Virus record (IMG/VR): IMGVR_UViG_3300044655_000820
Coordinates: 1 to 32,446 of that record
DNA: 32,446 nt
Source of the DNA: a virus
Strand: one strand, 5' to 3'
The notes beneath the pieces are model-generated. The model was not told where the DNA came from, did not search any database, and saw only the letters and a list, made by a program, of their open reading frames with translations. The position numbers and the translations under genes are program-made. Positions 3,001 through 26,990 of this stretch are shown piece after piece (the stretch's first letter is position 1; the number at the start of each line of letters is the position of its first letter).

Positions 3001-6000
3001 GATGGTACAATTCAATTAGCTGTTCAACAGCACGGTATATTCTCTGGCTCAACAAAAGGTATGAGTGCATCATCAGCAAACCCATTGGGTTCTGGTGGAA
3101 GAATTGCTGGAAGTCTTGGAATATCTGCTGCATCTGGTGCAGCTGGTTTAACTACTACTGTATTAGGTGCAGGGGCTAATGCTCTAATTGGTGCTGGTGC
3201 AACGACAGTTGGTACTGCTGTAGGTGGTGCAGCAACAGGTGCAGCAGGTGCATCTATTTCAACAGGTTTAGCTATGGGTGCATCATCATCTATGGCATCA
3301 ATGGTTGGCGGTTTGGCATTAGGATTGGTAGGTGGTTTAGTTCTCGCTGCGTTGCAATATGGTCTTGGTAAATTACTTGGTATCGGTAAAGTTAAATTTG
3401 AATCTATTGGTTATGGTATAGTTGAAAATGCAACGACTATGATAGTTGGTGGTGCTGAAAAAGCAATCAATGTATTTGATTACACAAAAGTTAAACAAAC
3501 TGTTAAAGGTTGGTTCAGCGATACCGTGAAAATATATGACGTAGTTAATGGAGTTAATAATCAATTATCTGCAGCAATGACAAGTGTATTTAATAATTTT
3601 AATAAAGTAATTGCAGATGTTGGTAAGTCTTTAAATATTGAAGATATTATGGATAAAACATTCACAATACCTAAAATCAAATTATCATTTACTAAATTGA
3701 AATCTGATGAAATATCTAAAAAAATAACAGATGCTTTAAACACAACAATGGATATTATCATTGAACAAGTTACCAATGGCTTCTTAAAACCATTTGCAAA
3801 AATGGGTGAAGGTGCATTAGAAACTTTTGTTCGTATTGCTGGTGAAGTTGCAGTAATAACATCTGTATTTAAAAAATCTGGTTATTCAATGTCTGCATCA
3901 GGTTTAGGTTTAATAACAATGGCAGAAGGACTATTAAGCTTATATGAGTCTTCAGATAAAGCAAACGATGGTCTTAAAAACTTCTTAACTTCTTTTGATT
4001 TATTTATTAAAACAGTGACAACTACTGGTGAAAAATTAGTTATCACTATTGATGATATGGCAACTAGACTTGCTGATATGAAAGCATTGGCTGATAGTCA
4101 GAAATCAAATGTAGCTGCTCCAGCAACATTAGCTTCAACTGATATAATTAAAACAATTAAAACAGCTCAGGAATCTCCATTAAGTGCTTCATATGATTCA
4201 ATGGCTGCTTTAGGTGGTACAAATATAGCCACTCTATTAAAAGGTATTGATAAAATTGTAGTTGGCTATGATGCTAAAAATAAACCTATATTCAGAACAG
4301 ATGCTGCTGGAAAAGAACTTACTATGACTAAAGACGAAAAAGAAGCTCGTCTTTTAGATTTATATGGAATGACATCAACTCAGTTTGGAGCTTCAGATAG
4401 AGGAAAATCAAAAGGTGGTCTTGATATAACAGCAAAAGACCTTAAATCAATGACTGGTGAACAGTTAAAAGGTTCACTAGGTATTGGTACACTTAGTTAC
4501 GAAACGTTACAAAGTAAAGCTAATACAGAAAAAGTAACCATTGATAAAAAAACAGGTGAAACTTTATTAGGAGTTTGGGCAACTGCAGCTAAAGATTTGA
4601 ATGTAGCTAGTGCAGTAGCAACTTCACAAACTTCAACATTAGATACAATAAATAAATTTATAACTAATCCTACTCAACAAACTGCAGGTAGTTTATTGAT
4701 GGGTGATATGAGTGGGTTATCTGACGCTGATTTAAAAGCAATTGCACAAGTTACTTCAGACGCTACAAAAAGTAAAAATCCAGAATTAACAATGTTACTT
4801 TCAGAATTGCCAAAATTAAAACCTGTTGAAATACCATCAGACCCATTAAAAATGACAGCAGCTGTAATGTCACAAGCTAGTAAAGATAATCTTGAAAATG
4901 CTAAAACATTAACAGAAATGTTAAATGTGTTTAAAGATATACTTGTAAAATTACCTAATTTAGATTTAAGTGGTTTACAAAAAGTAGATGGCACATTATT
5001 TAATAAACTTATTGATGGTATGACTTCGGGTACTGGTGGTTATGGTTTAACAGGTGTAGCATCTAAAACTCCACAATTAGCATTAGCTGGTTTAACTACT
5101 GATAAGTTAACTGATGCAATGAAAAAGAATATTTTTGGTGGTGCTGGCGAATTAGTTGGAAAATATCTAACAACAGGTACTGCAAAACAACAAGAGTTTT
5201 GGGGTAATGTTGCTAATCTAATTACAGGTAATGATAAGAATCGTGCTGAGTTAGCTATCATACGTGAAGATGTCGCTACTTATGTAAATACAAAATTCCC
5301 TTCATTTACTGATGAACAAAAATCTTTAATAACAAGACAACTTGATGCATCTCTATCTGTAAAAGACCCTATTACTGCTGTAACAGAAGCTATTAAAACA
5401 ATAACTGGAAAAGACCTTACTACAAAAGATACCGCTGCTATAACAGAAGGTATGTCTAAGGATACGTTAGCTGAAAGAATTAGTGCTATTTCTGATAGTA
5501 TTGCAACTATCTATGGAAAAGAGATTAATGCTACTACTTTAAAAACAGCAATTACTGAAGCAATGACTATACCAGTAGAAGACCAAATTGCAGCAATAAG
5601 TGCGGTGACAACTAAGTACGATACCCAATTAACTGCATCTAATAAGATAACACAAACATTAACTGATTCAGCTGCTACAATTGCAGCAACACTTACTGGA
5701 ATACAAAGAGTTAAAGATACTGCTGAATCAGCAATAAGTAAAGGTACTTCAGCTGATGCTACTAAAAAACGTGTACAGGAAACACAATTATTAGATATTC
5801 AAAATACTAAAGATGTGACTGCAACTTTATTAGCATTAGATACAGCAACTTCAAAAGTAGGAAGTGATTTAGTTGCAGCTTCTATAAAATGGTTAGATAC
5901 TCAAGATAAAGATACACAAGCTAAATTAGGATATTCTGCAAAAATAGTTGATGCTACTGGTAAAGTAACACAAGAAGCTATGTTAAGTGAACGTGCATTA

Positions 6001-9000
6001 AAAGCGTATGACTTTGAATTATCAAATAGTACTACATTATTAAATAATGCTAAAACAGCATTAACCAATTTCCAAAAATCAATTGCTGATTGGGTACAAG
6101 GTATGAAAGTCACTCAAGTTGGAAACACCAAATCACAACTTGATGCAGCAAGTAGAAAGTATGACCAATTATTAATGCAAATTAATAATCCAGCTACATC
6201 TGCTGAAGATAAAAACTTAGCATTGGGTAAGATGACTGGTGCAGCAGATTCAATGGTAACGGCAATTAGAAATTATTATGGCACATCTAAAACAGGTGCT
6301 GATATGACTTCTAAAATAATAGACCAAATGGATTCATTACCAGATTCATTATCTGTACAGGAATTAATGCTTGGCGAGTTACAAAAAATTAAAGACAACA
6401 CAGCAGCACTACCTACATTTGCTGGAATGACAACAAACGTAGATGGAGCTGGTAATAGCAAAAGCATTATTGATACATTATCGAAATCAATTGCAGCAGC
6501 AATGGCAATCGATAAAACTAATCCAACGCTAGCTAATACTGCTACATTAGATGCTAAAGCAAATGTGATGTTTGTTTTACAAAAAGCTACTGTTGGTGCT
6601 ACTGGTGCTGATGCAGTATTTTTAAATAATCTTGTTTCAGCTATCGGTGGCGATAAAGGTTTATCGGCTACTATTGATGCAGTAGTAAATGCTAAGCTTG
6701 GAACAACAACAACTGCAGATGTGCTTAACACATTAAAAACATCTTTTGCTGGATTAGAAGTTGAAATTGAAAAAGTTAAATTGAATCCAACTGAAGCTAA
6801 TATCAAACAGATGCAAGCTGATATTGATAACTTCAAAGTTTTAACTATGAAAATAAATGGTAATGTAGAAGCATTAAAACTCAATCCAGATGACCCTATA
6901 TTGAGAAGACAGTTGCAGGAATCACTAGATGAGATGAATGATTTTACAGCTAAAGTAACTGGTATAGATATTACAAGTACAGCTAAACGTTTAGCAGTTG
7001 GTGATTTAAAATCAACATTTGCTGATAGCACTTTCAAAGTTAATCCGTCTGTTAGTAATGGAAGTATTATTGAAATGATGTCTACATTACGTGAAAAATT
7101 TGCAGCCCTTATTGCTAAAGTAAATGTAACTGATAATCCTGTGGCAACGGCTACTTTAAAAGAAAGCTTTAGAAAATCATTCGGTACTATTGATTCAAAA
7201 GTATTTACTTCTCTTAATCAAGATAGCAAACTAGCAGTATTAAGTGCAATGGATGTTGCATTTGACCATATTGAAGCTACTGTAGACAGCACATTAAATG
7301 AGTCTAAAAAAGCAACTGTATTAACATCACTCAATCGTGCATTTGGTATTATACCTTCAGTAGTTACTGCAAATATAAATGAATCAGCTAGAATCGCAGC
7401 AGTTGAAGCTTTAAAAGTATCGTTTAAAACAATTACCACTGGTATTGCTCCAATGGTTAATGAAGATTTAAAACTCAAAGCACAAGGGATATTAGATAAG
7501 GCTTTTGATACTGTAGAAGCTACTATTAATAGCACTGTTGGTGAAGCTACTAAGAAAACTACATTCAATGCATTAAAAAATGCATTTTCTACAATAACAG
7601 CTTCTATTAGTTCAGATGTTAATGAAACATCACAGGGTCTTGCTTTAACTGCATTAGAAAAAGGATTCAAAGCTGTTAATGCTAATATAGTGAGTGATTT
7701 GGATGATGGTGCAAAATATGCAGTAGCTAATGAACTAAAAACAGCATTTGGTAAAATGACTGATATTATTTCAGTAGAACTAGACCCAAAAACTATGGAC
7801 AAAGCATTGACTGCTATAGATAGAGCTTTTGGTAGTATCGATGTATTAATTTCATCTAATGTTGAGCCAAAAACAAAACAAGCTGCCATAAAAGAAATAA
7901 CAGCTGCATTTGGTACTATCAAAACATTGGTTGAAAGCGATGTTGATGAGGAATCAAAATACAATACTATTGCTGCATTAGAACGTGGATTTGCTACAGT
8001 TGAAGCTGTTGCCTATGCTAGTATCTCACCTGCATCTAAAACAGCAGCAGTTAATAGTTTGAAAAATGCTTTATCTGGAATTCAAGCCTTAATTAATGAT
8101 GTAGCATTGAATCCAACTGATACTAATATCAGACAGCTTAATGATAAGATTAAAAAGTTTGGTAATCTAACTGCACAAGTTGAAACCACTATCAGTGGAA
8201 TAGCGATATCAACTAGTACTGAAGCTCAATTAGCTCGTGATATTTCTGCAATAGATGATTTAATGGCTGATGTTGGTTTAGGTGTTAAGAGTGGTGCAGC
8301 AACTGATTTGAATTCTCAAATAGCTGCTCTAACTAGTGCTATAAAAAATATTAAAGTTACTTTAAAAATTGATTTTGATGCTGTATCTGATGAAGCTGTT
8401 TCAAGAGTTGAGGGTATTCAAGATATATCACAAGACCCAATGGTATTTAAAATTCAAGTTCCACAAATAAGTACAGCTACTGTTGATAATTTAACAAATG
8501 CTCTTAAAGAATCAACAGCTGAAGCTGCTAAAATGATTACAACTTTTGATTCTATGTTATCCAATGCCCAACAAGTTCAATCAGCTATTGATATATTTGC
8601 CAATGGTAATACAATGATTGCTGCTTATATACCTCTTGCTGGTGAAGTTAGAGGTAGAGAAGGTTATCAAAAATTAGCAGACCTTACTGAAATCGAAGCT
8701 CAAATGCAGTTGACTACTACAGAGAAACAAAGACAAACTTATACTGATTTTGGACAAGATAAAATAAAAACAGAAAAGGATGCGTTGAAACTTGGTTCAC
8801 AACTTTATTATGATTTACAAACAGGAAGTAGTAAATATAATATTGCATTGAGTTATGTTGAAGGTTACAACTCAACACATACACCGGATATTCCACAAAA
8901 GGTTCATGTATTAGATGGTGCAAAGAATGAAGAATCGTATGCTGCTGGTGCAGTGTTAGGTAAAAATCCAAAAACAGATGCGAATAATGCATTAGCTGCT

Positions 9001-9417
9001 TATAACAGAGCATTGGCTATTATAAAATCTAGTTCTGATGAATACTATAAATTAATTGGCTATAATCAAGGTGGACAAAGCCCTTCATTCTTCGCAATGG
9101 GTGGTGCATTTACAAATGGCATAGTTAACACACCTACTGCATTTAACATGGGTGTTATGGGTGAAGCTGGTCCAGAAGCTATTATGCCATTAGTGCAAAC
9201 AAGTGGTGGTCTTGGTGTTCGTGCAATGACACCAGCATCTAATGACAATAACAATAATTCTGAAGAAGAATTACGTGAAGTTAAAAAACAAAACCAAATC
9301 TTAATGGCACAAAATGCAATATTGCAAGAAGGGTTCAAACAACTAATTAGTGTTAATACTAAACAAGCTGATAGCCTAGATAATATTGAAACAACAAATC
9401 GGAGAGCTGCTGCATGA
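1..9417 (+). CDS. Tail tape measure protein with SLT lysozyme domain (5' end outside window)
   Basis: The reading frame is open to the first base, so at least 3,138 codons are present and the true start is probably upstream; the GTG at 10 is only the first possible start inside the window. Numbering from that GTG, residues 110-310 are charged and helix-prone. A lytic transglycosylase (SLT, GH23-like) domain lies at about 373-490, with catalytic Glu 396 in TESEG, then GFSQLMPAT, AYNSG and ETENY. Two long hydrophobic Gly/Ala stretches follow at about 878-937 and 1038-1131, as expected for a protein inserted into the host envelope. The C-terminus has the GEAGPEAIMPL motif common in lambda-like tape measures, then a short coiled coil. 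The protein should set tail length and open the cell wall during DNA entry. The Ser/Thr/Ala-rich middle contains several tandem repeats, listed separately. The next gene overlaps by ATGA. Confidence 0.93.
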   Translation, partial: HGDVIDSMTGYWKAFLSLWDNPDDNSWVKSLKNVITYLDEIISKFFGLRTEAEKAKGIKSGIEVNVDESTVSGTINRALIDSGRWLAEKMGTDKLFKETPKDTTVGPLEAEKNRMDLEIAAKTALDEGVLAETIEAHKSSLVELNREIELQKKKNKLLEADIDMAEITSKRLEESTMNAHDAAVRAVITREAKQRDVLLNKGSIDESNKINTFELAKIPIPQEKDKLASKMYYQDDPNKLNPKGMDWQAAREFMKTATELAEKEVTNKENEIARQKAEKEAPAKAKQELADQLAIKKILDSTAEREQAMIKSRENANTRRMDVEHMSTSELEKQLTVTTKMSDIPMENLTMKINVKDEDLNVMSNAVERSTNKIGALVRAAADKYGVDYKRMLAMVKTESEGYADAVSGAGAKGFSQLMPATGKHYGLKPEDFFDAEKSLEAMGKYMKHIQEMPQFKDKPDLQTAAYNSGENLQAYKEGRIPRIKETENYVVNVTKLIATPDALDKFADQVVKYHDKALKPIVQYDKQLEAQRPVGQASVDVQSPTGQATAEGTIADKLKAATEYANKYREAYKQINAEMQSHPNLTREEADAYNELLQTIAKGSDTAEAHLKTLQAEADKISAKIIDIINKKAAITNAISSAESLSQLKADTNETVNKKGWGAIPELKAKAEEYTKTVSDLTEQKAKLESLISRSGSLEDKKGWATELNNVNNNLKTAEDSTKQLVSSVTSLNDKKLDKATNEANNLKSALADVKIDRIDFSPIATAIKQLTDSMQGSFGAAFDRISAGFSGTVSAASEAYSGLNSMSDSRKEKEMANQKELDGISDPKLKVDAEARFAKEKIKFDSDYVNATIGGTAKIAGAASQMFAQNSAGRKALHAIEVGLHGVEMAMSIAKIATSMAAGAAKFFEQSGWAGFAGVAAMVAVMAGFGIMAMGGGGGGVSDTSTKDTKTTGTVLGDSETASNSMEKVIDTLNSIHGKEYAALRDIVDNFKNISKAVDGTIQLAVQQHGIFSGSTKGMSASSANPLGSGGRIAGSLGISAASGAAGLTTTVLGAGANALIGAGATTVGTAVGGAATGAAGASISTGLAMGASSSMASMVGGLALGLVGGLVLAALQYGLGKLLGIGKVKFESIGYGIVENATTMIVGGAEKAINVFDYTKVKQTVKGWFSDTVKIYDVVNGVNNQLSAAMTSVFNNFNKVIADVGKSLNIEDIMDKTFTIPKIKLSFTKLKSDEISKKITDALNTTMDIIIEQVTNGFLKPFAKMGEGALETFVRIAGEVAVITSVFKKSGYSMSASGLGLITMAEGLLSLYESSDKANDGLKNFLTSFDLFIKTVTTTGEKLVITIDDMATRLADMKALADSQKSNVAAPATLASTDIIKTIKTAQESPLSASYDSMAALGGTNIATLLKGIDKIVVGYDAKNKPIFRTDAAGKELTMTKDEKEARLLDLYGMTSTQFGASDRGKSKGGLDITAKDLKSMTGEQLKGSLGIGTLSYETLQSKANTEKVTIDKKTGETLLGVWATAAKDLNVASAVATSQTSTLDTINKFITNPTQQTAGSLLMGDMSGLSDADLKAIAQVTSDATKSKNPELTMLLSELPKLKPVEIPSDPLKMTAAVMSQASKDNLENAKTLTEMLNVFKDILVKLPNLDLSGLQKVDGTLFNKLIDGMTSGTGGYGLTGVASKTPQLALAGLTTDKLTDAMKKNIFGGAGELVGKYLTTGTAKQQEFWGNVANLITGNDKNRAELAIIREDVATYVNTKFPSFTDEQKSLITRQLDASLSVKDPITAVTEAIKTITGKDLTTKDTAAITEGMSKDTLAERISAISDSIATIYGKEINATTLKTAITEAMTIPVEDQIAAISAVTTKYDTQLTASNKITQTLTDSAATIAATLTGIQRVKDTAESAISKGTSADATKKRVQETQLLDIQNTKDVTATLLALDTATSKVGSDLVAASIKWLDTQDKDTQAKLGYSAKIVDATGKVTQEAMLSERALKAYDFELSNSTTLLNNAKTALTNFQKSIADWVQGMKVTQVGNTKSQLDAASRKYDQLLMQINNPATSAEDKNLALGKMTGAADSMVTAIRNYYGTSKTGADMTSKIIDQMDSLPDSLSVQELMLGELQKIKDNTAALPTFAGMTTNVDGAGNSKSIIDTLSKSIAAAMAIDKTNPTLANTATLDAKANVMFVLQKATVGATGADAVFLNNLVSAIGGDKGLSATIDAVVNAKLGTTTTADVLNTLKTSFAGLEVEIEKVKLNPTEANIKQMQADIDNFKVLTMKINGNVEALKLNPDDPILRRQLQESLDEMNDFTAKVTGIDITSTAKRLAVGDLKSTFADSTFKVNPSVSNGSIIEMMSTLREKFAALIAKVNVTDNPVATATLKESFRKSFGTIDSKVFTSLNQDSKLAVLSAMDVAFDHIEATVDSTLNESKKATVLTSLNRAFGIIPSVVTANINESARIAAVEALKVSFKTITTGIAPMVNEDLKLKAQGILDKAFDTVEATINSTVGEATKKTTFNALKNAFSTITASISSDVNETSQGLALTALEKGFKAVNANIVSDLDDGAKYAVANELKTAFGKMTDIISVELDPKTMDKALTAIDRAFGSIDVLISSNVEPKTKQAAIKEITAAFGTIKTLVESDVDEESKYNTIAALERGFATVEAVAYASISPASKTAAVNSLKNALSGIQALINDVALNPTDTNIRQLNDKIKKFGNLTAQVETTISGIAISTSTEAQLARDISAIDDLMADVGLGVKSGAATDLNSQIAALTSAIKNIKVTLKIDFDAVSDEAVSRVEGIQDISQDPMVFKIQVPQISTATVDNLTNALKESTAEAAKMITTFDSMLSNAQQVQSAIDIFANGNTMIAAYIPLAGEVRGREGYQKLADLTEIEAQMQLTTTEKQRQTYTDFGQDKIKTEKDALKLGSQLYYDLQTGSSKYNIALSYVEGYNSTHTPDIPQKVHVLDGAKNEESYAAGAVLGKNPKTDANNALAAYNRALAIIKSSSDEYYKLIGYNQGGQSPSFFAMGGAFTNGIVNTPTAFNMGVMGEAGPEAIMPLVQTSGGLGVRAMTPASNDNNNNSEEELREVKKQNQILMAQNAILQEGFKQLISVNTKQADSLDNIETTNRRAAA
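5371..5694 (+). repeat. 108-bp (36-residue) tandem repeats inside tape measure gene
   Basis: Three successive units begin at 5371, 5479 and 5587, exactly 108 bp apart. Units one and two share the protein pattern I-x-A-V/I, then T-I-x-G-K-D/E-L/I, then A-I-T-E-x-M. The third unit keeps the first part and then drifts. The spacing without indels is read directly from the codons; the duplication history is inferred. Confidence 0.6.
7168..8058 (+). repeat. Eleven 81-bp (27-residue) tandem repeats inside tape measure gene
   Basis: Units start at 7168, 7249, 7330, 7411, 7492, 7573, 7654, 7735, 7816, 7897 and 7978, always 81 bp apart with no insertion or deletion. A decayed twelfth unit begins at 8059. 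The shared protein pattern is L-x-x-A-F-x-T-I, then a hydrophobic strand-like or helical stretch, then S-x-V-N-E-x-S-K-x-x-A. DNA identity between units is low, so the array is old but its length is conserved. Each unit probably forms a helical hairpin or helix turn in the extended tape measure. Near-identical LNPT-type segments flank it at 6781, 6880 and 8107. Confidence 0.85.
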
Positions 9418-15312: not shown

Positions 15313-15504
15313 ATGCCATCAAAATCAGCAGCGCAACATAAAACAATGTTAGCAGCAGCACACAACAAAGCCTTTGCTAAAAAAGTTGGCATCCCAATGT
15401 CAGTAGCAATTGACTTTATGAAGGCTGATAAAAAAGCTGGCAAATTTAAAGCCAAAGAAAAACCAAAAGCTAAAACCAAAACTAAGTCAAAGTCTAAGGG
15501 CTAA
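15313..15504 (+). CDS. Small basic phage protein (MPSKS type)
   Basis: A 63-residue protein. The ATG at 15313 is chosen because GGAG lies at 15302-15305; a longer frame from 15247 would overlap the adhesin gene without a ribosome site. The first half (MPSKSAAQH, AHNKAFAKKVGIP, IDFMKADK) resembles small conserved phage proteins of unknown function. The last 20 residues are almost only Lys, Ala, Thr and Ser, like a histone H1 tail, so nucleic acid or envelope binding is possible but not shown. It overlaps the following membrane protein gene by TAATG. Confidence 0.75.
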   Translation: MPSKSAAQHKTMLAAAHNKAFAKKVGIPMSVAIDFMKADKKAGKFKAKEKPKAKTKTKSKSKG

Positions 15505-15779
15505 TGGACATTTTGACATTTGCTGGTGAGGTTGGTTTTCCAATAGCAATAGCGTTAGCTGGGATATATTTTGTCTTGCTAACGCTAAAGTTTATCCTAT
15601 TAAGTGTACAAGGTTCAATACAAGAATTGATTATTATAATGAAAAAGTTAGATAATCGTGTGACATGTATGAGCAATGACATCATAAAAATAGACATACT
15701 TGCATCAAATATGTTGGACTTAAAACCAGACATGGATAGAATTTCTCGTTCTGAAAAAGCCGATACAAGGAAAGATTAA
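15504..15779 (+). CDS. Small membrane protein, holin-like (first of a pair)
   Basis: A 91-residue protein with one hydrophobic segment at about residues 10-36 preceded by VGFPIAIA, then an amphipathic helix and a charged C-terminus. It joins its neighbours by TAATG on both sides. The GFPI motif at the membrane and the I-x-x-L-x-x-x-I helix recall YvrJ-type small proteins, a tentative likeness. It shares a pattern with the next gene: GFP, YFV, then a helix with N-D-x-I-x-I/L. End-of-module position and single membrane pass suit a holin or accessory lysis protein, but no lysis gene is adjacent on this strand. Confidence 0.6.
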   Translation: MDILTFAGEVGFPIAIALAGIYFVLLTLKFILLSVQGSIQELIIIMKKLDNRVTCMSNDIIKIDILASNMLDLKPDMDRISRSEKADTRKD

Positions 15780-16027
15780 TGGAATTACAAGAACTTGCTA
15801 ATAGTTTAAATAGATTTGGATTTCCCGTAATTGCATCGGGTGGTATGGGATATGTGATTTACTTTGTATGGATTTGGGCAACTACAATAGTAAAACCATT
15901 ACTATCAGAAGCTATAGATGTGTTGATTGCATTAGTTGACCGCATAAGATTATTGGACAATGATGTGATACGGTTAACCCAAAAGATTAATGTGGCATTG
16001 TCATACAAAAATAAAAGCCCCAATTAA
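15779..16027 (+). CDS. Small membrane protein, holin-like (second of a pair)
   Basis: An 82-residue protein with a hydrophobic, Trp-containing segment at about residues 13-36 (GFPVIASGGMGYVIYFVWIW), then a helix with LDNDVIRL. It appears paralogous to the preceding 91-residue protein, with matching GFP, YFV and N-D-x-I features at similar spacing. It starts in the TAATG of the previous gene. Its stop codon sits in the loop of the terminator hairpin at 16013-16036. A membrane role is clear; holin function is inferred. Confidence 0.6.
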   Translation: MELQELANSLNRFGFPVIASGGMGYVIYFVWIWATTIVKPLLSEAIDVLIALVDRIRLLDNDVIRLTQKINVALSYKNKSPN

Positions 16028-16042: not shown

Positions 16043-16516
16043 CTAGGCAAATTGCCCACTCTTTAGCACTAAGGCTAATTCAGTAGCTCGACCATGTACC
16101 TGCCTAGCCCATCGTGAGTGTAATAACTCATTAGAAGCTAATTGATACTTATTGTTACGAATATACTTAACAGCTTGTTTGAATGATGATAAACCACCAA
16201 CGCCCATGTTATAACTCATGTCGAGCATCACATATTGCACATTGTTTGGCAGTGTACCGTACCATTCAAAATTAACTGCTAACTCATCATTTAATTTGTG
16301 ACACATCTTTTTAGCCAACGATGTTGCTTGCCACTTTGTTATGCCATCATGTTTTAATTTTGAAATTTCAGCTTTAGGCAAAGCCAATGGGTTTTGTGTA
16401 AGGCTATAACCATAGCCAATTGAATAACCATTAGAATCTTTATACTGCTTAGTTCTAAATCCTTCGTGAGCAATCGCTCCGTTCAAACAAACAGCTAACA
16501 ATGTACTTGCAATCAT
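16043..16516 (-). CDS. GH24 (T4-type) lysozyme with hydrophobic N-terminus
   Basis: A 157-residue protein preceded by AGGAAG. Residues 1-16 are hydrophobic and end in AIA, so they may be a cleavable signal or a signal-arrest-release anchor. The catalytic region follows: HEGF with Glu 18, YKDSNG with Asp 27, and YSIGYG, where Ser 32 stands at the usual catalytic Thr. Later GH24 features are present: MLDMSYNMG, SSFKQAV and WARQVHGRATEL. It should cut peptidoglycan in the periplasm. It resembles the degenerate protein encoded at 20290-20718 over most of its length. It is the last gene of the leftward module, just downstream of the DNA polymerase and just before the shared terminator. Confidence 0.82.
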   Translation of the reverse strand: MIASTLLAVCLNGAIAHEGFRTKQYKDSNGYSIGYGYSLTQNPLALPKAEISKLKHDGITKWQATSLAKKMCHKLNDELAVNFEWYGTLPNNVQYVMLDMSYNMGVGGLSSFKQAVKYIRNNKYQLASNELLHSRWARQVHGRATELALVLKSGQFA

Positions 16517-16539: not shown

Positions 16540-16576
16540 CTTAATATTAACATATTAATCTTAAGATAATATTAAG
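16540..16576. repeat. AT-rich inverted repeat between polymerase and lysozyme genes
   Basis: CTTAATATTA (16540-16549) and TAATATTAAG (16567-16576) form perfect 10-base arms, with the short palindrome ATCTTAAGAT in the middle (16558-16567). The right arm covers the polymerase stop codon. It may be an operator or weak terminator; with only A/T-rich pairs, its role is uncertain. Confidence 0.4.
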
Positions 16577-18695
16577 ACGTTGCTCCAATGTCTTTTAAGA
16601 TACGGTAGGCTTCAGTTATATACCACTGCTTATCTAAATCAGCAGGTAAGCAATCTGGTAATCTTTGCAATGGTCGGCAATTATTACTCATTGGAACAAG
16701 GTTGCCACTATTGACATATACGATGGCTGTGTTGGTCGAATTACTGTGATAGTATCTAACTGTCTTACCTAAGTATTCACCGTCCTTTACAGCCCCTCCC
16801 TTGACGTTTCTCAATGTGATAAACTTGCGTATATCTGTATTATTGTTAATTGTATCTTCAATAGCAATAGCATTAGTCAAATAAGCAACTACAGCTTCAG
16901 TACATACCACATTGACAGGATTCTTAGCTATTGATGATTCAGCATAAGCACCTTTTAATTTAACTTCACCATTTGTTTTGATTGCAATATAGTTATTCAC
17001 ATCACGATTGTAAATAGCTGAGTAATGTGTTTCTTCCATAATCATATTGCAATGTTTTTCAAATCGTTTTGTGATGTCCTGCAACAAATCATATTTATCT
17101 GTATCACAGTAAACAACTATGCCATCTGTGTTAGACAATACTACGTCAATACCAGCAAGTTGTAAACGCTCCATAAACATAAGGATAGTTAATTGACCAG
17201 ATATTGTAACCTGTGCTAATAAGCGTGGCGCATAGAGAATACTGTATTTACTGCCAAACTTACCAAACGAACCATTAAGACAAATCTTAAGCATAGCATC
17301 TTTAACTTTATCTTTATTTTTCTTAGCTTGTAATCGTGGATAAAAGATTTTATTTTCATAAAGATTCAAGAATCCAAAACCCAATGATTCTGGTGATAAT
17401 TTTTGGTCAATAATCATTTTTGGATAAAATGATGCGGCATCAATATCAGTTACCTTTTTATTTTTAGTAGCAATATAAGCAATGCTTTCTTCAACAACAT
17501 GCAAACCACCCAAACCCATCTTGTGCTTAATACCGCCAATAGTCACAATCAAACCCTCAACATCGGGACACATTACCTTACCTTCTCCTGTGTCAATATC
17601 TGCATTGCGCACTATCTCAAGAATAGCTTGTAATTCTGGTGTTTTAAAATTGATATATGCTGGCACAGTATATTTGAATTTAAAACTAACAAATTCACGC
17701 TTTTCAGCTTCACGACCAGTTAGCTTTTTATATTCAGCACCAATGATAGCTTCAGCAACCTGTGCATCTGATTTAGAACGCAAGTCAACATCATATTCGG
17801 CTGTCATCTTTTCACGTAATTCAATAGCAGATAATCTATCTAAATAAACTAATTTAGTTACAGATAAATCATTGGCACAATAATACTTGACAACTGATAT
17901 TTTCTTTTCACAAAGGGTACTTAATGGTTTAAATGGTAAATCAATAATGCTATCGCAATGTAATCTTGCACCATATAGTTTTAATGAATATTGCAATGGA
18001 CACAATTCCATAATGTCAATTTGATTTATATTGACAAGTTTTGTTTTGAATGCTTTTAATACTTCATAGCCACGCACTTCTTCTTCAATTATCATGGTGG
18101 TTGCACGTTGCATATCAGCACATGTTTTATTATTTAAGAATAATGACATGATGATGGCATCGAAGCCAATGCCGTTAAAAGAAATCAATTCTTTATTATC
18201 AATAATATATTGTAACTTACGATAGTTAGGTTCACCATGAAATTCAGATAGTTCAAAGAAAGCAACCTTACCACTATCGATGCCTTCAAAAGCAATCAAT
18301 GTGTAATTAGCATACACCTCAATGTCATATGTCAATCGCTCTGTGCAATCCACTAATTCACGGTCTGTGTATTCATTAGGAATCCATCCAGCAACCTCGT
18401 CAAGAAATGGAATATAATCCTCATTTTCCCAAACTCTTTCTGGTTTAACTGTCATGGTTTTTGGCTCAGCTTGCCAAAACAAACCATCCAAATCTCTACG
18501 TTGTTTACCAATAACCACAGGTTGATTATCAAAATAACGCTGTAGTCTTTCTAATACATCATCATTGAGGTCTAATTGAAATGCGTCTTCTTCACTATAA
18601 GGACTTTCTAAACCCAATTGCACTTCAATCTGGCTAATAGATTCACCAGTGATTAGCATTAAGTCATAAGCACTTATTACACGTTGATTGAGCAT
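16572..18695 (-). CDS. Family B DNA polymerase
   Basis: A 707-residue replicative polymerase with 3'-5' exonuclease. Exo motifs are LTYDIE at about residue 123, FNGIGFD at about 175 and YCANDLSV at about 273. Polymerase motif A is DIDAASFYPKM (about 417), motif B is KICLNGSFGKFG (about 475), and motif C is SNTDGI (about 522). In motif C the usual DTD is NTD, but the Asp that binds metal in family B enzymes is kept. At 707 residues it is shorter than T4 or RB69 polymerases. It starts 13 bases after a tiny membrane ORF, with AAGGA seven bases before its ATG, and follows the sliding clamp gene, so polymerase and clamp are probably made together. Confidence 0.9.
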   Translation of the reverse strand: MLNQRVISAYDLMLITGESISQIEVQLGLESPYSEEDAFQLDLNDDVLERLQRYFDNQPVVIGKQRRDLDGLFWQAEPKTMTVKPERVWENEDYIPFLDEVAGWIPNEYTDRELVDCTERLTYDIEVYANYTLIAFEGIDSGKVAFFELSEFHGEPNYRKLQYIIDNKELISFNGIGFDAIIMSLFLNNKTCADMQRATTMIIEEEVRGYEVLKAFKTKLVNINQIDIMELCPLQYSLKLYGARLHCDSIIDLPFKPLSTLCEKKISVVKYYCANDLSVTKLVYLDRLSAIELREKMTAEYDVDLRSKSDAQVAEAIIGAEYKKLTGREAEKREFVSFKFKYTVPAYINFKTPELQAILEIVRNADIDTGEGKVMCPDVEGLIVTIGGIKHKMGLGGLHVVEESIAYIATKNKKVTDIDAASFYPKMIIDQKLSPESLGFGFLNLYENKIFYPRLQAKKNKDKVKDAMLKICLNGSFGKFGSKYSILYAPRLLAQVTISGQLTILMFMERLQLAGIDVVLSNTDGIVVYCDTDKYDLLQDITKRFEKHCNMIMEETHYSAIYNRDVNNYIAIKTNGEVKLKGAYAESSIAKNPVNVVCTEAVVAYLTNAIAIEDTINNNTDIRKFITLRNVKGGAVKDGEYLGKTVRYYHSNSTNTAIVYVNSGNLVPMSNNCRPLQRLPDCLPADLDKQWYITEAYRILKDIGATS

Positions 18696-18708: not shown

Positions 18709-18792
18709 TTAGTTGATGTGATACTTAAATTCAAAGTAAGTATAAGTGATTAGTAAACCAATTGCTACTCCTATAATTAAATAAACAATCAT
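18709..18792 (-). CDS. Tiny 27-aa membrane protein between clamp and polymerase
   Basis: The ATG at 18792 overlaps the clamp stop (ATGA), a GGGG lies 10-13 bases upstream, and the frame ends in TAA just before the polymerase ribosome site. The product begins MIVYLIIGVAIGLL and is one membrane span followed by a short polar tail (FEFKYHIN). The ORF exactly fills the gap between two conserved genes, in the same overlap style as other genes here. Its function is unknown; docking the replisome at the membrane is a speculation. Confidence 0.6.
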   Translation of the reverse strand: MIVYLIIGVAIGLLITYTYFEFKYHIN

Positions 18793-19748
18793 CTAGCATA
18801 CCCCACAATACATCCTCGTAATCTATCACCAGTAAATATAGCTGGTCGTGGGTAAGAGCTGAAATCAATTCTTTTCATAATACCTTCTAATAATATCAAT
18901 AAGTTATAATTATAAACACCGTATGTAATTGGTAAATTCATTTCATAAACAGCTTCATTTTTTGTAGTCAATCCTTCTTTTGTAAATGTAATAGATGTAA
19001 ATTCTTCATCACAGAATGCTTTAAGTTGTTTCAAACCCGTATAAAAATCTTCTGGCATTTCAATAGGTGAACATGGAATATTCAATATGCCACCAAAGTT
19101 AGGAAATTTATTTTCAAGTGTTCTGGTTTTTATCCATGAGTCATCATCATAAAAAAATGTAATTGACTTTTGGCAATACCTAACACTAACAGGAATCAAT
19201 TTTATTTTAATTAATTCCTTAATTGCTTGTGCTGGTATCACAATAGGCATTGTGATATTTAGCAATGTGTCATGTTGTATTGCAATAGTATTGCAGGTAA
19301 CAAAAGCATTATTGCCATTAAACATGATGCTATTAGCCCATGCTTTTGCAGGGTCAGTATTATTGCCCATAAATGGTTCTAATATAGTAATAACTTGCAT
19401 GAAGTTTTCACCATCAATTTCATAATCAATACCTTCTGGGCGATACTCATGTGTATGTGTTATATCACATTCAATCAATGCTCGTAACTTACCAGCCTTA
19501 ACTGATAACTTTCCAGTTGGCGTTAGATTAAATGATGGTATTGCATTAGCATCATTTGCCGCTTTTATTATCGCTGTAAAGGTATCTGCTTTAGGTTTAC
19601 AATCAATAGGTATGCCAATACTAGCACTTGCTGTTAACAAGCCATTGTGAGCAAATATACGGTTATTTTCAATAGAGAATATTCCACCTTGTACTGTGAC
19701 TGATTTCTTAGTCACTGCACGTTGTACAAAATTAATTGCATTTATCAT
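18789..19748 (-). CDS. Sliding clamp-like DNA polymerase processivity factor
   Basis: A 319-residue protein resembling phage DnaN-like beta clamps. Features seen are GGIFSIENNRIFAHNG near the start, GKLSVKAGKLRALIEC at about 78-94, and FPNFGGILN before the C-terminal third. These match the repeated beta-alpha-beta layout of clamp domains, although sequence similarity to cellular clamps is low. It lies directly upstream of the family B polymerase with only a 27-codon ORF between. A clamp would tether the polymerase to DNA. A short AT-rich leader with a dyad lies upstream. An unrelated structural DNA-binding role cannot be excluded. Confidence 0.72.
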   Translation of the reverse strand: MINAINFVQRAVTKKSVTVQGGIFSIENNRIFAHNGLLTASASIGIPIDCKPKADTFTAIIKAANDANAIPSFNLTPTGKLSVKAGKLRALIECDITHTHEYRPEGIDYEIDGENFMQVITILEPFMGNNTDPAKAWANSIMFNGNNAFVTCNTIAIQHDTLLNITMPIVIPAQAIKELIKIKLIPVSVRYCQKSITFFYDDDSWIKTRTLENKFPNFGGILNIPCSPIEMPEDFYTGLKQLKAFCDEEFTSITFTKEGLTTKNEAVYEMNLPITYGVYNYNLLILLEGIMKRIDFSSYPRPAIFTGDRLRGCIVGYAR

Positions 19749-19852: not shown

Positions 19853-20290
19853 TTAATGCCTAGTAAATGCTTCTTGTATAAGCCATACTGCTATAGCACC
19901 TAGTGTTGATAATCCTGCATAAATTATTTTTTCAAGTGTTGCTATCTTTGTTGTGTGTTCAACGTCAGTTCCACTCTGTGAATTTTGTTCTATTTTAAGA
20001 TGTTCAATTTCTTTAAAGACTCTATCAAAGGCGGCTTTATTATCTATGTATATTTCAGATGTTCGTTTTTCTCGTTCTTCTGCTTTGATTGCTATTTCTT
20101 TCATCACTAAGGTGAATTCTGAAAATTTCTTAGATAGTTCACTTAAATCTAAGCGGATTTCTTTATCTATAGAACTTAATGTTGATTTTATCTCATCTAA
20201 ATCTTCCTTAACCATTGTGATATTCTCCTCAGCATGTTTGATTCTATATAGCTCAACCGATGCTGATTCTTTAATTAGTTCCGTATTCAT
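19853..20290 (-). CDS. Coiled-coil protein with C-terminal membrane anchor (XhlA/holin-like)
   Basis: A 145-residue protein. Residues 1-115 are highly charged with regular heptads (VKEDLDEIKSTLSSIDKEI and onward), a long coiled coil. Residues 120-141 form one membrane segment (AGLSTLGAIAVWLIQ), ending in a short polar tail. This layout matches XhlA-type proteins that act with lysozymes in some phages and prophages. The gene starts in the TAATG of the lysozyme-like gene and ends at a terminator, so it is the last member of a three-gene lysis unit. AGGGAAAG precedes the ATG. Holin function is inferred; a spanin-like role is less likely without a lipoprotein partner. Confidence 0.6.
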   Translation of the reverse strand: MNTELIKESASVELYRIKHAEENITMVKEDLDEIKSTLSSIDKEIRLDLSELSKKFSEFTLVMKEIAIKAEEREKRTSEIYIDNKAAFDRVFKEIEHLKIEQNSQSGTDVEHTTKIATLEKIIYAGLSTLGAIAVWLIQEAFTRH

Positions 20291-20718
20291 TATCTAACTT
20301 TCCCTGTTTTTAAAATAGTAATTAGTCTATTATTAACATTGCACTTTTGAAGTTCATATGCCGCTAAAGTAAACCGCCCTTGTTGTAAATAGTCCAACAC
20401 CTGTTTTTGAAATAATATTTCAGATACTGAATTTAATTTTGCTGACCCAATGATAACAAATTGACTCACTGAATCTAATTCATCAAACCATGTGATGCTA
20501 TTTAATATTTGATTTTTGATAGAAAAACATTCCAATCGTAATAATCTATCAGCTTTTTGTTCTGAAATACCATCAGTTTTTAATTCTGATACTTCAGAAG
20601 GTGGTAACAATAATCTATTTTTCATCATATCATATTTATAACCAATAGTGTGATTAACTACTGTATTATAAAATGGTAGTATCTCTTTTAATACTATTAG
20701 CCCATTATCTAATATCAT
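20290..20718 (-). CDS. Degenerate lysozyme-like protein (probable pseudo-enzyme)
   Basis: A 142-residue protein similar to the GH24 lysozyme at 16043-16516. Matching parts include HTIGYKY against YSIGYGY, LLLPPSEVSELKTDGIS against LALPKAEISKLKHDGIT, and the end LITILKTGKV against LALVLKSGQF. Key features are lost: the catalytic Asp region has become FYNTVV, the second Gly of TIGYG is Lys, and the WARxxxGRA segment is missing. Glu 12 may still align with the catalytic Glu. The frame is intact and coupled by TAATG on both sides, so it is kept and translated. It may bind peptidoglycan or regulate the endolysin; this is inference. Confidence 0.65.
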   Translation of the reverse strand: MILDNGLIVLKEILPFYNTVVNHTIGYKYDMMKNRLLLPPSEVSELKTDGISEQKADRLLRLECFSIKNQILNSITWFDELDSVSQFVIIGSAKLNSVSEILFQKQVLDYLQQGRFTLAAYELQKCNVNNRLITILKTGKVR

Positions 20719-21251
20719 TATTTTTCCAAATACAATGCACGTTCAGCTTGTCTACGCAAAGTCAAACCACGAAGTACAACTTTTTTGCCATTAACTGTTG
20801 CTTTATTCCATTTAAGAAACTCATCTGCTGCTCCAGCATCATCACCAGCTAATATCTTTTTGAGCAACGTGCTTACTTTTAGATTACCGTCACCGCAGTT
20901 ATAATCAAAAGAAACAACTGCCGCAAATTCATTTTCTGATAATTCTATTTTGCCACGAATAGCTCTAGTCACATTGTCGGCATAGACTTGTAAATCTATA
21001 TTTAACAACGCTTCAGCATCTTTTTCAGTCATCATGTGAAAAACTTCTGCCGCTTGTCTATATGCTTCTTTTTTATCAGCAGAACCTTTTAGAAATCGAG
21101 ATTTATCTGTAGTTTTTAAAGCACGACCATAACCAATAGTCCAAATTCCTGCTGGACATTGTTTTGGCTGTAATCCAATTTTGGTTAAATCGCCATCATG
21201 CAAAGATTCAAAATGCTTAATTAAGTCAATGCCTTTTTGGTTTATAGTCAT
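20718..21251 (-). CDS. Endolysin, GH24 lysozyme
   Basis: A 177-residue lysozyme of the lambdoid/P2 type. Glu 15 in HFES is the catalytic acid, and QCPAGIWTIGYG carries Cys 32 and Thr 38, the Glu-Cys-Thr arrangement known in this subgroup. Later features include AAVVSFDYNCGDGNL and LTLRRQAERALY near the end. It has no signal peptide, so it needs a holin to reach peptidoglycan. It is the first gene of the lysis unit and overlaps the lysozyme-like gene by TAATG. GGGAAA precedes the ATG. A promoter candidate overlaps the upstream terminator at 21280-21320. Confidence 0.93.
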   Translation of the reverse strand: MTINQKGIDLIKHFESLHDGDLTKIGLQPKQCPAGIWTIGYGRALKTTDKSRFLKGSADKKEAYRQAAEVFHMMTEKDAEALLNIDLQVYADNVTRAIRGKIELSENEFAAVVSFDYNCGDGNLKVSTLLKKILAGDDAGAADEFLKWNKATVNGKKVVLRGLTLRRQAERALYLEK

Positions 21252-21325: not shown

Positions 21326-21766
21326 TTATGCAGTACCTGTACTACCAAATCCACTTTCACCACGAGCTGATGGTGGAAATTCAGTTACTACTTCAAATTG
21401 TGCTTGTTCTACTTTAATAAATACCATTTGTGCAACACGCTCATTCGGTGCAACAATAAATGAAGCTCCACTACGATTCCATAATGACACAAACACTTGA
21501 CCTTGATAATCAGAATCAATTAGACCAACTAGGTTTCCTAATACAATACCACTGTTATGACCAAGACCAGAACGCGGTAATAACACTGCCGCATAGTTAG
21601 CATCATCAATGTTAATTGCTAAACCTGTTCCAATCAACTTAACTTCATCTGGTTGTAATACTAACGGTTCATCTAAAATAGCTCGTAAATCTAATCCTGC
21701 TGAGCCACCTGTTGCATAAGTTGGTAATACTGCTCTTTCATCTACAACTTTAATTTGTACTCTCAT
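21326..21766 (-). CDS. dut: dUTP diphosphatase (dUTPase)
   Basis: A 146-residue trimeric-type dUTPase with all five motifs: [40 protein letters not shown] and the C-terminal [10 protein letters not shown] arm. It hydrolyses dUTP to dUMP and diphosphate, keeping uracil out of DNA and feeding dUMP to the ThyX encoded at 28172-29032. Length and motifs match the bacterial Dut type. The ATG is preceded by AAAGGTG. It closes a unit of small genes starting with the VRR-NUC nuclease and ends at a strong terminator. Confidence 0.97.
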
Positions 21767-23846: not shown

Positions 23847-26800
23847 CTATTTAACGGGACATACACCGCCCACACATTCTTGGGATTCAATCTCAGTAAA
23901 TGAACCACTTGTAACTACTTCACCTAATATTGACTTATATTCATCAAACGCTTCCTTAGTTACTACTTCTTGAGGTAAGTATTGATATCCTAGCATTTCC
24001 GCAGTTTTGGTAGGGTCTGCACGATATAGGAATGATACGCCAACATACAAATCCCAATTATTTAAAAGCCATTGAATAACATCTGGTACTTCTTCTGGTG
24101 AATAACTAATTGTCACAGACGTGTTTTGTTGCGTCCAATTATTTTGCAACAACGCATAACGGTCAAGTTGTGTAATAGCTGATTCTAAATTAACTTCCAT
24201 ACCATTATGACTATCAAACGGCACATCATCCCAACTAACTGGAAAACAAACGATACAGGATGTAGTGTCATTTGGATGTGGGATAATTTTATAATTAGCA
24301 TCACGTAAAGATTGTAAATTTTCATCATGGTTACTAAATACTACGTTGTTAAAAATGTATCTACCTAATGGTTTGTGTACACCTTCTGTAGTATCCATAA
24401 TTTTAGAAAGTGTATTGTGCGACTTAACCGAACCAGCATAATACCAATGTTCATTAGCAACTTCGATGTCATACGTTGGTTTAATACCAATTGACGTGAC
24501 ATTTCTAACCTTACCAATAATACCAGCGTTTGATGCTGTAGACTCATACATCCAATGTGACCCACGAGTTTCTTTAGCAATCTTTGTGCTATTTTTTGCA
24601 AGAACATTAAATGCGGCTTCAGTAGTATGAACACTTAATGTAGCAAGATACATTGATTTTCTAGCTTGATGGTTATATCCAAGTGTATTATGTGACATAC
24701 CAAATGCCAAACCAACTGCCCAACCAATATCTTGTACATGTTTTGCAAATCTACCGTCTGCACTCGAAATCATAACATTGCGCTTACCAGTTCTTGAATC
24801 AATTGCTATACAACCATCAGAATCAACTAGACCTGCAATAAATGAAATTATATCACAATGGGTTGATGTTCTAATACACGTAGGCATTAATTCTAATTTA
24901 TCAGCATCATATTTAAATACATTGTTTTTTAGTAACCAATGCCAAAGCATTTTACTTCCAATTTCTAATACATAAGCATCTCTATCTTGTGATGCTCTAT
25001 GAATTTCACCGCTAACCGAAAATTTATCAAAAATAATTTTACTCACTTTTTCTAAATTATTAATATTTTGGTCAATCCAACGTAAACGATACTTTAATGG
25101 TGACATTGAACCATCTCCCCATAAATAACCCAACATCCAAGCTAAATCATTATCCATATAATCTGGTTGTGTTATTACCGATACATCACCACGCATTTTT
25201 AAAGACAACGAATTTAATTTCAATAGTTTTTGATGTTCATGTTTTGTGTAAACACCAACTTTCACATCAATAATATGACCATTTTTTAAATTAGATGTTT
25301 CAACCCAATCATTAATATCAGTATATTTACGTTTTTCAGAATCATAATAACTTGTCACAAACCAAGGGTGATTGGCTGTAGACTCTACTGTTAAACCATG
25401 ATTCATGCTTACTGAAAATACTTCAGCTTCACCGTTATTATAGGTTTTTGTAATAGCATTATTTGAATCACCTTGAATAACTTTTAAATCGCTATTGAAT
25501 GAATCCCATTCTACAGATTCATCATGGTCAACAAATAGTTCTTCTAATGTAAAAATACCATCTTCTGTAGTAGTTAACGCATTCCAAGGACGGCAACCAC
25601 TTGGTTTAACACAAGTAGTGTTCTTAGGTTTCTGTGTACCTAATTCATCAGCCATGCCCATTGTAGCGGCAGTAGCAATACGTTGCATAGATTGATAGTC
25701 ATACGCAATTAAATCGGGTCTACGGGCAATTCCTGTTAAACCTACACCACATAAACGTAAGAACTCATTGTTTAAATGCCAAGACTCTTGCAAGATACCA
25801 TCTTTTAGATTTACTAATGTTTGACGATAATTAGCTCTACCCATAATATATAGCGCACGATTCAAACCATCAGTATCACCATGAAACTTACCAATGTCAA
25901 CTTCAGTTAGGTTACAAAATGACTTATTACCTAACAAAATTTCAACACATGGATTAACACCAGCAAACCAAGGCGCACGTCTTTTAGCCGCTTCACCATT
26001 GATAAAACCTGGTTCTGAGCCACCTGCACGTTCCATCAATGCAAACAATTCAGTTAGGCGTTCTTCAGTTGGTTTATTGTGAAATACTAATGAGTTATTA
26101 CTTTGACAACGATGTGCATTGTCATGTAACCAGTAGTCTTTTTTGGCTACTGAAAATTCGCTTGATTCATAATCATCAGCATCCATGATACAAATTTGTG
26201 CTGAGCGTCTGCTAGATAATACAGTACCTAAATGATTCATAATATCTAAAATATCAATTGCCGATAGTAAGCTACCTGCACGTTTAGACATAATTTTAGC
26301 AATTTTTACATAGGCTTTAGCAATTGATTCATCACCACTTGAAATCCAACCATAACCTTTTAGACGCTCACCTGCTGGACGAATATTGCTAAAGTCTAGC
26401 ACAAGTGTTTTAGCTGGAAATTTACCTGCTAATAATTTGCCAATTGATTTAGCCCATGCTTCAGCAGAATCACCAATGCGAATTGTCCACACTTTTGTAG
26501 CACGGTCATAACTTTCAAAGTTCTTTTGGTCGCCTAATTTATCTGTACGAGTAGAACGAATAACCTGAATATCATCAATAGCATTATTAAAACCATTCAA
26601 TGTGCCACGAATTGGTCTGAAGCCAACACCACAACCTTGAAGTAATAACCACAAACAATCTACCATATCATATACAGTTTCTACATTTGTAAATGAGCAG
26701 TTAAACATTGATGACATACGAGTACGAGAAATCTCAGTGCCACCTAACCACAAACTTCTACCAGACATTAATGCTTTGCGGTCTAACATTAATTGACGCA

Positions 26801-26990
26801 ATTCTTCTAATTCAGCAACTTGTACTTTATTTAATTTTGCATGTTTAGCTTGTTCCCATAACCATCGTTGATGACCAACAACACGGTCAACTGTTTCATC
26901 CCATGATTCAAATGCACCATCTTCTTTTGGTCTATTATAAGTACGTTTTGTAATTAAATTTGCTCTAACACTAACTTCATTTTTACTCAT
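23847..26990 (-). CDS. nrdJ: Class II (B12-dependent) ribonucleotide reductase with intein
   Basis: A 1,047-residue precursor; removing the 394-residue intein leaves 653. It belongs to the monomeric adenosylcobalamin-dependent type (Lactobacillus leichmannii RTPR). Cys 98 (MFNCS) and Cys 359 form the active-site redox pair. Cys 348 and Glu 350 in NPCVE give the thiyl radical site, with the 11-residue spacing to Cys 359 as in RTPR. Cys 1039 and Cys 1044 (CVGGVC) are the C-terminal shuttle pair with the same four-residue gap. It makes deoxynucleotides and needs no oxygen, only cobalamin. The intein interrupts the nucleotide-binding loop KPSG/TLSK. The start overlaps a 54-aa ORF by ATGA. Confidence 0.95.
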   Translation of the reverse strand: MSKNEVSVRANLITKRTYNRPKEDGAFESWDETVDRVVGHQRWLWEQAKHAKLNKVQVAELEELRQLMLDRKALMSGRSLWLGGTEISRTRMSSMFNCSFTNVETVYDMVDCLWLLLQGCGVGFRPIRGTLNGFNNAIDDIQVIRSTRTDKLGDQKNFESYDRATKVWTIRIGDSAEAWAKSIGKLLAGKFPAKTLVLDFSNIRPAGERLKGYGWISSGDESIAKAYVKIAKIMSKRAGSLLSAIDILDIMNHLGTVLSSRRSAQICIMDADDYESSEFSVAKKDYWLHDNAHRCQSNNSLVFHNKPTEERLTELFALMERAGGSEPGFINGEAAKRRAPWFAGVNPCVEILLGNKSFCNLTEVDIGKFHGDTDGLNRALYIMGRANYRQTLVNLKDGILQESWHLNNEFLRLCGVGLTGIARRPDLIAYDYQSMQRIATAATMGMADELGTQKPKNTTCVKPSGCRPWNALTTTEDGIFTLEELFVDHDESVEWDSFNSDLKVIQGDSNNAITKTYNNGEAEVFSVSMNHGLTVESTANHPWFVTSYYDSEKRKYTDINDWVETSNLKNGHIIDVKVGVYTKHEHQKLLKLNSLSLKMRGDVSVITQPDYMDNDLAWMLGYLWGDGSMSPLKYRLRWIDQNINNLEKVSKIIFDKFSVSGEIHRASQDRDAYVLEIGSKMLWHWLLKNNVFKYDADKLELMPTCIRTSTHCDIISFIAGLVDSDGCIAIDSRTGKRNVMISSADGRFAKHVQDIGWAVGLAFGMSHNTLGYNHQARKSMYLATLSVHTTEAAFNVLAKNSTKIAKETRGSHWMYESTASNAGIIGKVRNVTSIGIKPTYDIEVANEHWYYAGSVKSHNTLSKIMDTTEGVHKPLGRYIFNNVVFSNHDENLQSLRDANYKIIPHPNDTTSCIVCFPVSWDDVPFDSHNGMEVNLESAITQLDRYALLQNNWTQQNTSVTISYSPEEVPDVIQWLLNNWDLYVGVSFLYRADPTKTAEMLGYQYLPQEVVTKEAFDEYKSILGEVVTSGSFTEIESQECVGGVCPVK
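24414..25595 (-). mobile_element. Intein with LAGLIDADG homing endonuclease in nrdJ
   Basis: The 394-residue in-frame insert starts at Cys 466 (CRPWNALT) and ends at SVKSHN (Asn 859), followed by Thr +1. Block A is at the first Cys, block B is STANHPW, and the C-terminal block is YDIEVANEHWYYAG then HN. Two LAGLIDADG helices are seen: LAWMLGYLWGDGS (about 616-628) and FIAGLVDSDGC (about 715-725). Both have acidic residues in the catalytic position, so endonuclease activity looks intact. Joining the flanks restores KPSGTLSKIMDTTEG, the conserved reductase loop. Splicing is expected because all terminal residues are standard. Confidence 0.95.

Follow-up and report, generated by a model that had tools for sequence, protein, structure and literature searches.

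Genes at the Locus

The window, i.e., the whole stretch of DNA that was analyzed, comprises 32,446 bases of a virus record classed as a linear fragment. The genes relevant to the present work are all located on the minus strand and are listed here together with the similarities by which they were assigned.

16043..16516, minus strand: lys2, a second lysozyme of the same family, paralogous to the degenerate gene, 157 aa (PF00959, E = 2e-10)
16572..18695, minus strand: family B DNA polymerase (phrog_1252), a syntenic marker
18789..19748, minus strand: sliding-clamp-like DNA polymerase processivity factor
19853..20290, minus strand: coiled-coil protein of 145 aa with a hydrophobic segment at the C-terminus; its gene is orthologous to the one after lysA in related contigs
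20290..20718, minus strand: degenerate lysozyme gene for a 142-aa protein; its ortholog in contigs L030-L033 is lysA
20718..21251, minus strand: GH24 endolysin of 177 aa that looks active (PF00959 in Pfam, E = 3e-32)
21326..21766, minus strand: dUTPase, a syntenic marker that precedes the endolysin and, in the relatives, lysA
23847-26990, minus strand: ribonucleotide reductase with a B12-dependent-type insertion domain match

The original prediction of an intact gene for a 142-residue protein at 20290-20718 was borne out by an uninterrupted frame with an ATG start, to which the strand, missing from that prediction, has to be added. The proposed TAATG coupling to the endolysin gene upstream and to a coiled-coil gene downstream was confirmed for both junctions, each of which shares one base, and purine-rich stretches (TTTGGAAAAATAATG and AGGGAAAGTTAGATAATG) are present upstream of the two coupled starts. 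The product of the downstream gene had been described as a membrane coiled-coil protein, which agrees with our analysis; in detail, the hydrophobic segment is C-terminal and follows the coiled coil, with residues 122-140 of 145 forming the most hydrophobic stretch.

Relationship of the Degenerate Protein to GH24 Lysozymes

Comparison of the degenerate protein with Lys2 yielded a local alignment score of 153, as opposed to a mean of 27 and a maximum of 45 for 500 shuffled sequences (z = 31), and 29% identity over 107 ungapped residues. The likeness to the lysozyme encoded 4 kb away that had been noted before is therefore real, but this lysozyme is not the closest relative. A closer one is LysA, encoded at the same place in the viral contigs L030-L033 (E about 1e-20), with which the degenerate protein shares 38-40% identity vs. 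27-29% with any Lys2. A recent copy of lys2 is ruled out as the origin of the gene by the existence of this closer syntenic ortholog. Likewise, the gene is not a duplicated and subsequently inactivated copy of the endolysin to which it is coupled, as similarity between the two proteins is not detectable at a significant level (z = 1.3). While LysA and Lys2 themselves match PF00959, the degenerate protein did not match PF00959, any lysozyme PHROG or any NCBIfam model at E-values up to 1; weak profile matches, among them LEF-8 and SaoE, were set aside as chance. Judged from these sequence comparisons, the degenerate protein is a diverged homolog of GH24 lysozymes that shares common ancestry with them. 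In the tree, the gene is only provisionally placed, on a long branch with a support of 42.

The catalytic triad of GH24 lysozymes follows the motif Glu(X)8(Asp/Cys)(X)5Thr (PMC8228626). LysA from L030-L033 fits this motif with a complete triad (E15-X8-C24-X5-T30). At the aligned positions the degenerate protein contains V9, N18, and T24, such that only the equivalent of the threonine is kept. The reported loss of the catalytic aspartate thus holds with respect to the position (N18), with the qualifications that the ortholog carries cysteine rather than aspartate there and that the catalytic glutamate has disappeared as well (V9). Two further losses listed in the original prediction were found as described: The last glycine of TIGYG is replaced (TIGYK, K28), and the W-A-R-Q/G-R-A region is disrupted by in-frame deletions of four and three residues. 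Apart from these deletions and a start six codons later, by which six N-terminal residues are missing, the gene corresponds to lysA in its full extent. In the MAFNLG motif, the conserved M, N, and G are changed to S, L, and S. A catalytically dead site in an intact frame is thus supported for the predicted protein. Muramidase activity retained via displaced residues, e.g., E12 and T24, is very improbable. T24 is indeed kept and E12 is located only three residues from the position expected for the glutamate, but the ungapped alignment puts V9 and N18 at the hydrolytic positions, both the cleft glycines and the W-A-x-Q element are missing, and the profiles of Pfam, PHROGs, and NCBIfam give no match.

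Deviations from the published motif occur in the other two lysozymes of the window. Lys2 features E18-X8-D27-X4-S32, i.e., serine instead of threonine and a spacing one residue shorter, while its relatives in L030, L032, and L033 combine serine with the X5 spacing. The endolysin carries about eight extra residues between glutamate and cysteine compared to the canonical X8 (E15...C32-X5-T38), an insert that it has in common with its relatives in contigs L017, L018, and L020.

Gene Order in Related Viruses

The contigs L030-L033 are four uncultured-virus contigs that were found with the ribonucleotide reductase as bait and are 75% identical to the window in this protein. They exhibit the order reductase, phoH, dUTPase, lysA, coiled-coil membrane gene, polymerase, and lys2, the latter being seen after the polymerase gene in L030, L032, and L033 (46-47%), as L031 ends after the polymerase. 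LysA (155 aa) occupies the place of the degenerate gene between dUTPase and coiled-coil membrane gene, and the coiled-coil genes of window and relatives are orthologous (32% identity). Neither the endolysin nor the clamp gene of the window is present at this locus in L030-L033, where the respective stretch is fully covered. The pair of degenerate and coiled-coil genes accordingly lies between two genes, for the endolysin and the clamp, that were inserted (or lost) in a lineage-specific manner. Homologs of LysA with about 40% identity are annotated as lysozymes in isolated phages and, in phage Alexa, the gene lies between the holin and Rz genes; on this basis, LysA plausibly was the endolysin.

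Relatives that share the dead state were not found upon direct search of viral contigs, phages, plasmids, and genome contigs. The phage collection returned matches to the degenerate protein only at E-values above 1, and the clamp and coiled-coil proteins recovered no usable relatives when used as search baits. Contigs L003 and L004 encode a near-identical polymerase and a Lys2 with 94% identity, and break inside the polymerase gene, short of the locus of the degenerate gene.

Probable Replacement of a Putative Former Endolysin

The endolysin encoded upstream of the degenerate gene is closest to the models for BgtA and SpmX among NCBIfam families and has relatives with 49-56% identity in L017, L018, and L020. 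There, the endolysin gene is followed by small membrane or coiled-coil genes without an adjoining lysozyme-like gene. In the light of these arrangements, the degenerate gene is best read as a putative endolysin gene that was superseded upon insertion of the gene for a distantly related GH24 endolysin. That replacement was the cause of its degeneration is suggested by the fact that an intact ortholog holds the locus in relatives devoid of the endolysin. Insertion of the endolysin and replacement of lysA would constitute the simplest history, and we infer its direction, gain in the lineage of the window and not loss in L030-L033. The reverse course, in which an old endolysin was lost in L030-L033, is possible and would leave the dead state unexplained.

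As the best explanation overall, we consider it probable that the degenerate gene is the remnant of lysA, the lineage's former lysis lysozyme. The inserted endolysin would have taken over wall cutting and LysA would thereby have been released from catalytic constraint.

It had originally been suggested that the degenerate protein serves as regulator, decoy or wall-binding partner rather than being subject to decay. The premises of this suggestion, a lysozyme homolog without catalytic residues, encoded in an intact frame that is coupled to the genes on both sides, are all in place, while the proposed roles did not find support. A role directed at the upstream endolysin, be it as regulator, inhibitor or decoy, would agree with the one-base coupling of the two genes, but the two proteins are not detectably similar, the endolysins in L017, L018, and L020 show that this type of enzyme needs no such neighbor, and lysA resides at the locus in lineages that lack the endolysin altogether, such that a function of this kind appears improbable. 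Nothing specific supports binding to the cell wall, for which the protein would depend on the cleft that it no longer has.

Residual Function or Drift

To what extent the gene has been decaying was addressed on the basis of substitutions and of the open frame. Family-conserved columns are kept to 32-39% in the degenerate protein vs. 64-100% in active members, while it keeps about 0.33-0.35 of the variable columns, just as pairs of active proteins do. Uniform decay is disfavored by this comparison (p = 0.04, 0.066, and 0.004 at three thresholds). Conservation is furthermore distributed differently along the protein. Residues 47-72 of LysA, corresponding to residues 41-66 of the degenerate protein, are kept to 58% as compared to 23-38% between active homologs, whereas only 23% of the N-lobe/active-site residues are kept vs. 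44-56% in comparisons of active proteins (interaction z = 2.8, for regions chosen after the alignment was seen). Recent recombination as the source of the conserved stretch is ruled out, as for about half of its conserved amino acids the two genes use different synonymous codons.

Simulation of unconstrained drift left the frame open in about 1% of the genes at the fitted retention of about 0.64 (0.62-0.65), before indels were taken into account, and in about 10% at a retention of 83%. The substitutions themselves resemble neutral ones. Compared with LysA, polar-to-hydrophobic changes amount to 0.31, which falls into the range of the neutral simulation (0.27-0.32) and not into that of active pairs (0.10-0.20), and the mean BLOSUM62 score of -0.51 equals that of a neutral simulation in which the frame is kept and is worse than that of most active pairs. 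Two lines of evidence are thus to be weighed. The intact frame and the rearranged conservation favor a residual, presumably non-catalytic role, while the neutral-looking substitutions favor a relic that may have been kept open by recent origin or by translational coupling. With regard to the claim that the gene is not decaying, it follows that the neutral substitutions allow for decay, and that the rarity of open frames (about 1%) and the redistributed conservation oppose decay in its simple form. The arguments derived from the open frame lose force if selection acts solely on the frame, by virtue of its coupling to the coiled-coil gene.

This last case would apply to a protein without any role, the frame of which is maintained since ribosomes that terminate at TAATG start the coiled-coil gene. 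Such a relic would account for the TAATG junction, for the neutral-looking substitutions and for the fact that family-conserved columns are no better kept than variable ones. On the other hand, the coiled-coil gene has its own upstream AGGGAAAG stretch, uniform drift predicts a lower identity at variable columns than is found and does not lead one to expect that conservation moves to residues 47-72 of LysA; we regard this explanation as possible yet doubtful. An inactivation so recent that a chance stop has yet to arise is unlikely. While it is compatible with the share of frames surviving at 83% retention and with the circumstance that the dead form is known from this lineage alone, the gene has lost two catalytic residues along with several of the conserved glycines and carries two deletions that preserve the frame, and at the fitted retention open frames are scarce.

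If lysA was indeed replaced, its remnant may, with a likelihood not far below even, now be a non-enzymatic protein in which the helical lobe of the fold is retained and whose partner would be the coiled-coil membrane protein, the next one to be translated. The pairing of the degenerate gene, or lysA, with the coiled-coil gene is kept in both lineages. More specifically, and as a tentative proposal, a repurposed pseudo-lysozyme could make its contacts mainly through the helix between the lobes (residues 41-66) and through the C-terminal tail. Otherwise, and this takes up the remaining probability, the protein would be functionless and its frame open through recent inactivation or through feeding of ribosomes to the downstream gene.

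Predicted Structure

A structural model of the degenerate protein was obtained with AlphaFold2 on the basis of an alignment of seven sequences, restricted to those from the window and from viral contigs. The model has a mean pLDDT of 72. Its C-terminal lobe is predicted with a pLDDT of 84-92 and matches T4 lysozyme (Z up to 13.7). Confidence is low for the N-lobe, and it was equally low for the active-looking Lys2 modeled from the same sequences; the idea of an N-lobe specifically disordered in the dead protein was dropped in view of this control.

Comparison With Known Systems

With GH24 phage lysozymes such as T4 lysozyme (PF00959) and LysA, the degenerate protein has in common the homologous sequence, the predicted helical lobe and the genomic position in a probable lysis block. 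It differs from them by the absence of the glutamate, of the Asp/Cys residue, of several conserved glycines, of W-A-x-Q and of a Pfam match. A precedent for co-option of this type of domain is SpmX, a localization factor of Caulobacterales with a muramidase domain that derives from phage lysozyme and has been re-used without normal muramidase action. SpmX is, however, a bacterial, membrane-anchored protein with an extension of its own, while the degenerate protein is a free-standing phage protein, and it is the intact endolysin of the window and not the dead gene that matches the SpmX model. T7 lysozyme gp3.5, an amidase, binds T7 RNA polymerase in addition (PMC5445346). It is an example of a wall-degrading phage enzyme, encoded in the company of replication genes, that has a further binding role apart from the wall. 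It differs from the degenerate protein in being still active and unrelated in fold and chemistry; a gene for RNA polymerase was not identified in the window. SpmX and T7 lysozyme are therefore precedents for non-wall roles, and the degenerate protein belongs to neither family.

The coiled-coil neighbor bears some likeness to the releasin gp25 of phage Mu, a small membrane-tethered DUF2730 protein encoded just after the endolysin (PMC9239132), in that it is also small, predicted to be tethered to the membrane and encoded after an endolysin. The transmembrane segment of DUF2730 is N-terminal, whereas the hydrophobic segment of the neighbor is C-terminal, and DUF2730 was not matched in a Pfam profile search. 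A SAR-like segment is not present in the sequence of the window's endolysin.

The individual parts, i.e., lysozyme paralogs and endolysin swapping, are ordinary, and phages swap endolysins frequently. To our knowledge, a displaced endolysin gene is rarely caught in place. What is unusual here is that both states are visible at one locus, such that the state before (L030-L033) and the state after (window) can be compared. The dead gene would represent an enzyme caught either in becoming a helper protein or in slowly fading; should its product still act, a phage lysozyme would have a separable second role in lysis.

Further Features of the Virus

At about residues 481-859, the ribonucleotide reductase probably contains an intein with a LAGLIDADG-like domain, and it matches the reductases of L030-L034 in two segments. 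A second pair of paralogs adjoins lys2 and consists of two adjacent genes for small hydrophobic proteins on the plus strand (15504-15779 and 15779-16027), both of which match phrog_18771 (function unknown). In the 3135-residue protein encoded at 10-9417 on the plus strand, residues 374-470 form an SLT transglycosylase domain, by which the number of units derived from wall hydrolases in this virus amounts to four, the dead lysozyme included.
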